Source: Anaerolinea thermophila
Lineage (GTDB): Bacteria; Chloroflexota; Anaerolineae; Anaerolineales; Anaerolineaceae
DNA: 64,000 bases
Reading direction: 5' to 3'
Assembly: GCF_020723905.1 (NCBI RefSeq)
Contig: NZ_DYHZ01000002.1
Coordinates: 372,001-436,000, forward strand
Part shown: in pieces, positions 35,961-45,165 of the stretch
Position numbering within the stretch: position 1 is the first letter of the stretch
How the letters are laid out: each line of letters opens with the position of its first letter
Notes under the pieces: generated by a model
What the model saw: only the letters and a program-made list of their open reading frames with translations
Database searches by the model: none
What the model was told of the DNA's origin: nothing
Made by a program: the position numbers and the translations under genes

Positions 35961-36014
35961 GTTTTCATGGTAATCAATATTGTTTTTTTTTCAAGCGGTT
36001 TTTGGGGTTGGGTC

Positions 36015-43081: not shown

Positions 43082-44179
43082 ATGCCGCCTATTTATCCGT
43101 TTACTGCCATCGTTGGTCAGGAGCGCATGAAGCGTGCTCTGGTATTGAATGCGGTAGATCCGCGTATTGGCGGGGTGTTGATTCGCGGCGAGCGCGGCAC
43201 GGCAAAATCTACCGCGGCGCGTGCCCTTGCGGCACTGCTGCCCAAAGTCAAAGTGGTCAGTGACTGCCGTTTTGGGTGCGATCCGGATGCTCCGGCAACC
43301 TGGTGTACTGAATGCCGCGAGCGCGCCGAACGCGGCGAATCCCTGCCGATGACGCTGCGGCAAATTCCTTTCATTAACCTGCCGGTTTCTGCTACTGAAG
43401 ATCGCGTGGTTGGCACGCTGGACATTGAAGCCGCCATTCAGCGCGGTGAACGACATTTTGAGCCGGGTGTCCTTGCCGCCGCCAATCGCGGCTTGCTTTA
43501 CATTGACGAAGTCAACCTGCTGGATGATCATGTGGTGGATGTTCTGCTGGATGCCGCGGCTATGGGCATGAACATTGTGGAGCGCGAAGGTATTTCTTTC
43601 AGCCATCCGGCGCGCTTCATTCTCGTGGGGACGATGAACCCTGAAGAAGGCGACCTGCGCCCTCAGTTGCTGGATCGCTTTGCTCTTTCGGTGGAAATCT
43701 ACGGCATTCGCGATGCCCGCGAGCGCGTACTTATCATGGAGCGCAATCTCGCATTCGAAAAAGACCCCCTGGCTTTTGTCGCTTACTGGCAGCCCAAAGA
43801 GCAGGAACTTTCTCAGCAGATCGAACAGGCTCGCAAACTGCTCGATCAGGTTACCTATACCAGCCGTGACCTGCTTTCGATTGCTTCTCTCACTGCCTCT
43901 TTGCAGGTGGATGGTCACCGTCCCGATCTCGTCATTCTCAAAACTGCCCGCGCACACGCCGCCTTTGAAGGGCGCACGTCCATTACCGCGCGGGATATTG
44001 CCCTGGCGGCGGAACTGGCGCTCCCGCATCGCCTGAAGCGTTCTCCCTTCCAGCAAGCCTCGGCGACGATGGAGGAACTGGCGGAGCGCATTGAGCAGTT
44101 ACAGGGCGGCGCTACCTCCGGCGAGCCGCGGGAACACCCCGGCGGCATGGAAGAAGAATCCGGGCAAAAAAAAACGTAA
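43082..44179 (+). CDS. chlI: ChlI-like AAA+ chelatase subunit (zero-frame product of the chlD gene)
   Basis: 365 aa. AAA+ ATPase of Mg/Co chelatases: Walker A GERGTAKSTAA (~residue 37), the ChlI-specific Cys-rich insertion FGCDPDAPATWCTECRERAE, Walker B LLYIDEVNLLDDHVVD (~residue 139), FILVGTMNPEEGDLRPQLLD (sensor 1) and LKTARAHAAFEGRTSITARD (helical lid). It ends SGQKKT at a stop placed just after nine A. A -1 shift there joins it to a VWA domain; without it the product is a small subunit. Ribosome site AAAGGAG is 13 bases from the ATG, rather far. No cobN or chlH lies in the window. Confidence 0.92.
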   Translation: MPPIYPFTAIVGQERMKRALVLNAVDPRIGGVLIRGERGTAKSTAARALAALLPKVKVVSDCRFGCDPDAPATWCTECRERAERGESLPMTLRQIPFINLPVSATEDRVVGTLDIEAAIQRGERHFEPGVLAAANRGLLYIDEVNLLDDHVVDVLLDAAAMGMNIVEREGISFSHPARFILVGTMNPEEGDLRPQLLDRFALSVEIYGIRDARERVLIMERNLAFEKDPLAFVAYWQPKEQELSQQIEQARKLLDQVTYTSRDLLSIASLTASLQVDGHRPDLVILKTARAHAAFEGRTSITARDIALAAELALPHRLKRSPFQQASATMEELAERIEQLQGGATSGEPREHPGGMEEESGQKKT

Positions 44180-45165
44180 CCGATGGGGAGACCGGGCAGG
44201 TTGAACAGCCCGATGCGACTCAGCAGGAACCATCCCGTCAGAACATCTTTGATCAGGGGAATACCCAGTGGTGGAACGGCGGTAAGCAGGTCAGTACCGG
44301 CGAGACTTTTGAGGCGCGCCGCCTCGATACCCCTTTAGATAAAATGATGCGCCGCCAGGCAGGTCGGCGTTCGCGCACCTATACGGACCGTAAACGCGGA
44401 CGCTATATCCTTGCCCGCCCGGCAGGCAGACGCCGGGACGATCTGGCGTTCGACGCCACGCTGCGCACAGCGGCGCCTTTCCAGCGTCAGCGTGAGGAAC
44501 TCAAAAAGCGCAACCGTGTGGCGTTTGCCGTGCGCCCCTCCGATTACATGCGCAAGGTGCGGGTGCGACGTGCCGCCAACCTCGTCCTCTTTCTGGTGGA
44601 TGCTTCCTGGTCAATGGCGGTTGCCGAGCGTATGCAAGCCACCAAAGGCGCTATTTTGTCCCTGCTGAATGATGCTTACCAGCGCCGTGACCGTGTAGGC
44701 TTGATCACCTTCCAGCGCGACCGCGCCACCTTGATTCTCCCTCCGACCAACTCCGTGCAACTGGCAGAGCAAGCCCTGCGGGAGATTCCCGTTGGGGGCA
44801 AAACTCCCCTCTCGGCGGGATTGGATCTGGCATACAGCATCCTCAAACGCGAGAAGATGCTTCATCCCGATGTCCTGCCCCTGTTGATCGTCCTGACCGA
44901 TGGAGCCGGTAACGTCTCTATGGGACATTTGCCGCCCCTGGAAGAAGCCCACTATCTGGCCGAGCGCATTGCCGAAGAACACGTCCATTCGGTGGTCATC
45001 AACATGGAACATGCCGCCTTTGATCAGGGGCTGGCGCAGGAACTTGCAGATCACCTCAAAGCCCCCTGCTACAACCTCACCGACCTGCGCGCCGAGAGTC
45101 TGTACTATACCGTGCGGCAGGAAATGCAATCCAGCCTCCTCAAAGGGCTGGAAGACAAACGCTGA
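43082..45165 (+). CDS. chlD: ChlD-type chelatase medium subunit made by -1 frameshifting
   Basis: Predicted 694 aa: bases 43082-44173 then 44173-45165. After the AAA+ part (residues 1-~340) the shifted frame continues KKNVTDGETGQVEQPDATQQ, a polar linker, then NIFDQGNTQWWNGG, ETFEARRLDTPLDKMMRRQA and a VWA domain with MIDAS residues LFLVDASWSMAV (~503) and IVLTDGAGN (~604). The linker and ARRLDTPLD region are typical of ChlD, and they lie upstream of the first ATG of this frame (44344), which has no ribosome site. Hence the VWA part must be reached from the upstream frame. Either programmed frameshifting, transcript slippage or a sequence error in the A-run would explain it. Confidence 0.75.
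44166..44174 (+). promoter_or_regulatory. A9 slippery tract for -1 frameshifting
   Basis: Zero-frame codons CAA AAA AAA ACG TAA contain the heptamer A-AAA-AAA. GGAAGAAG about ten bases upstream is a weak Shine-Dalgarno-like stimulator candidate, and a small stem CGGGC/GCCCG (44193-44197 with 44208-44212) lies 18 bases downstream. Confidence 0.65.

Follow-up and report, generated by a model that had tools for sequence, protein, structure and literature searches.

A conserved -1 frameshift of the fs-chlD family in Anaerolinea thermophila, and variation of its slip site and gene architecture among the Anaerolineae

Overview

On comparative sequence evidence, the ChlI/ChlD-like gene carried by a stretch of 64,000 nucleotides from Anaerolinea thermophila (hereafter the window) is a real and conserved programmed frameshift of the already described fs-chlD family. 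Slippage on its run of nine A's is predicted to yield two proteins that have the same N-terminus, a small AAA+ ATPase and a medium AAA+/VWA protein. The greater novelty of this analysis lies in patterns seen at the level of the class: a toggle of the default product and a trade-off of run length against RNA structure. The job of the fs-chlD family is stated in print to be unknown, and these patterns provide testable handles on it. Indeed, the family is probably no fossil chelatase, its two-product design seems mostly to survive changes of architecture, and the balance between run length and RNA structure may offer a natural series for how product ratios are kept.

The gene, its slip site and its predicted products

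Frame 0 reads CAA AAA AAA ACG TAA at the run, and direct reading confirms that the ChlI-like frame stops straight after the nine A's, as had been claimed from the letters alone (hereafter the sequence-only reading). The -1 frame is free of stops from about position 44095 to the end of the open reading frame and encodes a linker followed by a VWA domain (Table 1). Its first ATG, GTG or TTG is the ATG at 44344, in agreement with the claim that no ATG lies ahead of that position. A slip after the AAA at 44171-44173 joins 364 residues of frame 0 to 330 residues of the -1 frame, i.e. 694 aa, and this arithmetic reproduces the two product sizes, 365 and 694 aa, given by the sequence-only reading. 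The MIDAS residues said to be intact hold up as well, since all 20 aligned rows agree at the MIDAS-type positions D143, S145, S147, T211 and D243 of the -1 product.

By chance alone, the A9 run is unremarkable and its conservation is what counts: the window holds two A9 runs, for 0.74 expected, and at least two are found in 15 of 100 shuffles. The only one besides the slip site lies at 35983-35991 on the minus strand. Furthermore, nine A's contain the heptamer in any phase, and the phase is uninformative for the window itself.

Table 1. Positions, within the window, of the features of the frameshifted gene
Feature	Positions	Strand	Remarks
ChlI-like AAA+ frame-0 ORF, small product, 365 aa	43082-44179	+	read from sequence
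Walker A GERGTAKST in small product	43187-43213	+	
SD-like GGAAGAAG of the sequence-only reading	44149-44156	+	not supported as stimulator
A9 run	44166-44174	+	in-phase slippery heptamer A_AAA_AAA at 44167-44173
-1 frame extension of medium product, 330 aa	44173-45165	+	ORF end 45165
TAA, frame-0 stop of small product	44177-44179	+	one codon past heptamer
5-bp stem of the sequence-only reading	44193-44212	+	arms 44193-44197/44208-44212; not supported
VWA domain	44584-45084	+	Pfam VWA_2 and VWA; MIDAS-type DASWS at 44599-44613
Tryptic peptide NVTDGETGQVEQPDATQQEPSR			predicted -1-frame product

Conservation of the slippery run in the order

The ChlI-half loci comprise 63 loci from 61 order-level genomes, the source genome included, and a second set made of the best 80 of 580 matches from named genomes, hence 143 loci. 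As both sets overlap in genomes, repeats were removed, which leaves 120 distinct junctions. Among the first 63 loci, the two halves are split by -1 in 54, by +1 in two and are in frame in one, one half being missing in six; all 54 -1-split loci carry the in-phase A_AAA_AAA. Likewise, the 143 loci (best 80 of 580 matches included) comprise 132 that are -1-split with the in-phase heptamer and none that is -1-split without it, the others being +1-split (four), in frame (one) or devoid of one half (six). Thus, a search of related Anaerolineae for the A run, suggested by the sequence-only reading, finds the run kept in 132 of 132 -1-split loci (same 80 of 580 included).

The 120 distinct junctions, which include those of the best 80 of 580 matches, display A7 (15), A8 (two), A9 (72) or A10 (31) runs, and all 15 distinct A7 runs of this set are in the sole phase that gives the heptamer. 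The frame-0 stop is found 0-8 codons past the heptamer in 113 of these 120 junctions (best 80 of 580 included) and 18 codons past it in the seven others. Heptamer-bearing splits include those of Pelolinea submarina, Leptolinea sp. HRD-7 and Levilinea saccharolytica, and two split junctions (L114 and L135) come from records titled complete genome.

Proposed stimulatory elements and run length

The sequence-only reading had proposed two stimulators of the slip, and neither withstood analysis. The downstream 5-bp stem is at chance level in the window (z -0.94; equally good folds arise in 32 of 200 shuffles). The stretch that carries it folds with -11.8 kcal/mol, for -4.9, -5.9 and -10.3 in the genus relatives L006, L007 and L008, respectively. 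Around the upstream SD-like GGAAGAAG, anti-SD pairing is weaker than in synonymous recodings (z +1.7), and no SD-like enrichment was found at 120 loci (best 80 of 580 matches included), z being -0.17 for the 17 short-run and +0.21 for the 103 long-run loci. A downstream stimulatory RNA structure was thus not found for the window gene; the available part of PMC9227772 calls such a structure usual in fs-chlD genes, and it is thus no defining criterion here.

Averaged over 54 junctions in 50-nt windows, RNA structure displays only a slight dip, and a signal surfaced once the loci were sorted by run length. In the order set (best 80 of 580 included), the A7/A8 split genes carry a downstream hairpin beyond the synonymous-codon control (z -1.91, n=17), whereas the A9/A10 split genes of this same set, again with the best 80 of 580, do not (z +0.18, n=103, p 0.013 towards less structure). 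This contrast is repeated in the class set, in which four loci (L158-L161) belong to the same order as the window: z is -1.90 for A7/A8 (n=18) and +0.17 for A9/A10 (n=39, p 0.46). For genes fused in frame, structure is mixed at A7 runs (n=5, mean -0.97, p 0.62) and flat at A9/A10 runs (n=20, +0.06). One clade of 10 members has an invariant 6-bp stem, CGCCGG/CCGGCG, located 6 nt 3' of the heptamer.

The short-run class requires 11 changes on a quick tree of 210 tips, at least four of them forced by supported branches. Sign tests on independent pairs rely on few pairs (four of 11 on supported branches, median p 0.5; one of five in a further test) and are underpowered; PGLS was therefore used. 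Over 202 junctions, it relates run length to structure with a slope of -1.85 (lambda fitted at 0.5, p 5e-8; lambda 1, i.e. pure Brownian motion, p 0.024). Run length and RNA structure thus appear to balance each other in setting the strength of the slip site. This pattern fits a published reporter series, since the chelatase fs-gene cassettes assayed in E. coli gave 63% (A11), 40% (A9) and 10% (A7), according to the available part of Antonov 2013 (PMC3711429). The window gene belongs to the A9 class without structure, and in its lineage nine A's are probably sufficient for slippage, with no need of a structured stimulator.

Fused relatives and the default product

The class-level survey covers 97 loci. 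Of 115 further class genomes, 80 were searched and 35 left out; among the 69 matches listed, 67 were taken, a partial match (G121) and a second match (G143) being set aside. The loci are -1-split with the heptamer (58), fused in frame with an in-phase heptamer (25), fused without a run (eight), +1-split with a run (two) or without it (two), or devoid of one half (one). The sole -1 locus without a run, L215, has a ChlI half that meets an early stop.

All 25 fused genes that keep the run have a -1-frame stop 2-32 nt past it, for 8.8 expected when the order of the 40 codons that follow the run is shuffled (a single value being taken for each of 13 families, p 0.0017). Stops of the +1 frame are also enriched, 15 of the 25 genes having one within 32 nt of the run for 4.9 expected (p 0.0029); these +1 stops are found in 14 of 20 A9/A10 genes and in one of five A7 genes. 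A null drawn from the whole gene had been tried for the -1 stops (combined p 3e-9) and was discarded as too lenient, because the acidic linkers are TGA-rich out of frame.

In such a fused gene, as in E. coli dnaX, normal decoding would give the long protein and a slip the short one. Insertion of one A into a split gene would give the fused layout, the old frame-0 stop becoming the new -1 stop. As 25 fused relatives keep the run, all with a near -1 stop, the default product can apparently flip. Among run-bearing genes, the best tree requires 13 switches between split and fused layouts, of which well-supported branches force at least six; when run-less fused genes are counted, these values are 14 and six. 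The view that ten A's would mean a plain fused gene, taken by the sequence-only reading as a refutation test, is therefore too simple, since 25 of the 33 fused class relatives keep both the in-phase run and a near -1 stop. An uninterrupted frame without slippery run, which it had also named as refuting, is seen in eight fused class relatives. A close second chlI (E <= 1e-80) was found in none of the eight genomes carrying these run-less genes, four of which are less than 90% complete, and two products may therefore not be needed everywhere.

Several loci depart from both layouts. In L095 and L110, as in L230 and L239 from the class set, an A10 run goes with a +1 relation; these four loci are one base from either architecture and represent either assembly errors or toggles caught mid-way. 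L253 and L254 are +1-split without any A run, and the sequences near their frame-0 stop (CCGAAAAGT and CCCAAAAGA) are possible other shift sites.

Taken together, these data lead us to a broader reading that we hold with even confidence for and against. The class Anaerolineae would keep the run while a one-base change toggles the default product, and run length would be traded against hairpins as if the product ratio were selected. A7 runs would slip on the ribosome and A9/A10 runs perhaps also in transcription, and the motor would be a non-chelatase AAA+/VWA machine.

Ribosomal and transcriptional slippage

Reading frames, conservation and domain content, together with the lack of any large-subunit or HemC match (see below), are the observations on which an explanation can be built. 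On the heptamer A_AAA_AAA, tandem tRNA-Lys would slip by -1, giving two proteins from one mRNA. Normal decoding would give the 365-aa AAA+ ATPase and slippage the 694-aa AAA+/VWA protein; both subunits would have identical first 364 residues and the slip rate would set their ratio. Together, the products would most likely make up a motor of the ChlI/ChlD-like AAA+/VWA type, not a porphyrin metallochelatase. We consider this whole, a programmed -1 ribosomal slip with two products that serve such a motor, to be probable, a translational rather than transcriptional slip, the ratio, the complex and the non-chelatase role being its inferred parts. The conserved heptamer supports what the sequence-only reading proposed in this respect, namely programmed -1 slippage on the A run and two products of common N-terminus.

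Alternatively, the slippage could be transcriptional: at the nine A's, RNA polymerase would add one A or drop two, yielding an mRNA that encodes the fused protein. The commonest class, A9/A10 (103 of the 120 junctions, best 80 of 580 matches included), has no structured RNA stimulator and, in the available part of PMC3711429, nine A's of Thermus dnaX slip during transcription. Moreover, the fused A9/A10 genes have stops of both other frames near the run, as two-way slippage would use, and the clustering of +1-frame stops is not predicted by -1 ribosomal slip alone. A -1 ribosomal slip agrees with the fused A7 genes; in the fused A9/A10 genes, slips in either direction would truncate the product. 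However, the A7 sites (15 of 120 junctions, best 80 of 580 included, all in the heptamer phase) are short for transcriptional slippage and go with hairpins in the split genes. Furthermore, polymerase slippage should presumably serve the +1 relation about equally, but the C-terminal half lies at -1 in 132 and at +1 in only four of the 143 loci (best 80 of 580 included), and the 97 class loci comprise 58 at -1 with the heptamer for four at +1. The enrichment of +1 stops in fused genes led us to raise our estimate for transcriptional slippage slightly and to lower that for the ribosomal slip by about as little. Transcriptional slippage is a serious possibility at A9 sites; as the explanation of the gene we hold it to be rather unlikely, and programmed ribosomal slip stays our preferred explanation.

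Chelatase subunits or another motor

The products could be true cobalt or magnesium chelatase subunits whose large subunit escaped detection. The literature name of the family points this way, and so does NCBIfam, in which the best match of both halves is TIGR02442, 'putative cobaltochelatase', although neither half alone reaches the curated cut-off. The small product, which carries the Pfam domains AAA_lid_2 and Mg_chelatase, matches PDB ChlI chains with E-values of 6e-104 to 1e-98, and the VWA part matches the BchD domain 2x31 with 6e-26. An AAA+ small subunit and an AAA+/VWA medium subunit with MIDAS residues, as expected of a chelatase, are both encoded. TIGR02030 (BchI/ChlI) comes second for the small product with 436.6 bits, below its cut-off of 466.95, for 536 obtained by the chelatase-side ChlI of a class genome.

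Nevertheless, the large subunit (PF02514, CobN/ChlH) was found in none of 61 order genomes, among them the source genome, where the sequence-only reading had suggested looking for cobN; the profile is positive in five of 14 named control genomes. HemC (PF01379), positive in 11 of the 14 controls, is not found in the 99.96% complete source genome, in which methylmalonyl-CoA mutase is present. As neither large subunit nor HemC was found, the motor is most likely no porphyrin metallochelatase.

The class genomes argue in the same direction. A large subunit above the cut-off is found in 13 of 150, and all 13 hold the fs-chlD family, always on a contig other than that of the large subunit. Eleven of the 13 carry a distant second ChlD, which in eight of these 11 lies on the contig of the large subunit, within about 2.2 kb of it. 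In six genomes, a separate ChlI ORF stands ahead of the second ChlD; for one of the six (L256), the three ORFs exceed the BchI, BchD and BchH cut-offs. One genome, G073, has a second ChlD without large subunit. In a ChlD tree of 46 chosen rows, the 32 fs-family rows and L063 form a 100/100 branch that leaves all 11 second ChlDs outside, with a long-branch warning for L255, L061, L062, L063 and L056. The fs rows alone need two changes, L063 falling among them, and a single clade is not rejected (AU p 0.38).

The coexistence with a ChlD linked to the large subunit fits a separate paralogue better than a fossil chelatase and is compatible with an ancestral role. True chelatase subunits are thus improbable, and the sequences are best read as encoding a ChlI/ChlD-like AAA+/VWA motor that would act on another client. 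What stands of the chelatase proposal of the sequence-only reading is one gene making two products by -1 slip; the assignment of these products to a cobalt/magnesium chelatase does not, given PF02514 in 0/61 genomes, no HemC and a second ChlD in 11/13.

The absence of another chlI, put forward in the sequence-only reading as a check, is contradicted by a second distant ChlI-like ATPase of 394 aa and 40% identity in the source genome (G000, contig C6, 169989-170948; L003, L068). By eye, it has no VWA neighbour and is followed by TPR-like and URO-D-like ORFs (L068), and the gene order around it is common to seven of seven genomes fetched. Three order genomes carry extra ChlI copies (L049, L057 and L059), which are 65-72% identical and have no VWA half that could be found.

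Neighbourhoods were compared for 79 loci (the window and 78 named loci) with flanks of up to 6 kb, many contigs being shorter, and no operon common to the 79 was found in these flanks. The flanks include, as named by reading the sequences, a divergent S1-domain-like protein at 28 loci and downstream M42-peptidase-like genes at 15. A divergent MeaB-like GTPase and a B12-binding mutase-like protein, named by eye, are found at 14 loci each (e.g. L081, L150), which at most hints at a link to B12 enzymes.

Independent initiation and sequence error

Two coupled genes, the VWA protein being initiated on its own at the ATG 44344, would account for the ORF listed from that position in the -1 frame, and a possible precedent exists in two divergent homologues whose ChlI and VWA halves, by eye, overlap in +1: L061 seems to rely on an SD and a start of its own and L062 on an overlapping GTG, so that both seem to use their own start codons, with no slip. 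A start at 44344 would, however, lose the conserved WW-GG...RRLDTPLDK block, whose W33 and W34 are invariant in 20 of 20 rows. Moreover, in 62 of the 120 junctions (best 80 of 580 included), the -1 frame is devoid of start codons from the slip to the WW motif; in the 58 others of this set, again with the best 80 of 580, it has an ATG, GTG or TTG ahead of the motif, an ATG in 31. Coupled genes are thus very improbable.

A sequencing error or pseudogene, i.e. a true A10 run in a plain fused gene, would agree with the proneness of homopolymer runs to error and with close relatives off by one base (L095, L110), but as the same -1 split is seen at 120 distinct junctions (best 80 of 580 included), A7 junctions and two records titled complete genome (L114, L135) among them, assembly error cannot account for it, and we regard this alternative as negligible for the window and refuted at family level, and recoding, not error, as well supported by the sequences compared.

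Comparison with known systems

The window gene displays what characterizes fs-chlD genes, namely ChlI-like and VWA halves in a -1 relation and a conserved, in-phase A_AAA_AAR-type site. Its products are homologous by sequence to the AAA+ and VWA subunits of magnesium chelatase (ChlI/BchI, 8osf, 6l8d and 1g8p; BchD, 2x31), a system that differs in its large subunit and HemC, neither found here.

In the available part of Antonov 2013 (PMC3711429), a cluster of chelatase genes likewise uses a -1 frameshift at a poly-A site, but in other genera (Pseudomonas, Burkholderia, Delftia, Herpetosiphon, Methanocaldococcus and Methanococcus). Fused relatives are handled there as plain fusions, whereas most of those reported here keep the slippery run. 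The genes described by Kuznetsov, Milenkin and Antonov in 2022 (PMC9227772) are closest: in the available part of that paper, fs-chlD genes of Anaerolineaceae, Anaerolinea thermophila and Brevefilum fermentans being named, come from the same genus and family, have a frameshift signal, lack a large subunit and have a function stated to be unknown, and a separate chlI is given for Anaerolinea thermophila, Levilinea, Ornatilinea and Longilinea. These genes are read there as chelatase 'living fossils', whereas the class tree and the large-subunit genomes suggest here a separate paralogue family. The same part of that paper makes no mention of the fused-with-run architecture or of the trade-off between run and hairpin, and none of the words dnaX, truncated, premature or in-frame appears in its text. 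More generally, no mention of both architectures for chlD was found in the available parts of the chelatase fs-gene literature compared.

The nearest parallel to both architectures is dnaX (tau/gamma). According to the available part of PMC3711429, it also has an A-rich slip site at which slipping gives the short or the long product, hence two architectures, and its slip is ribosomal in E. coli and transcriptional in Thermus. It encodes a different protein and, for chlD, both architectures are found here within one bacterial class.
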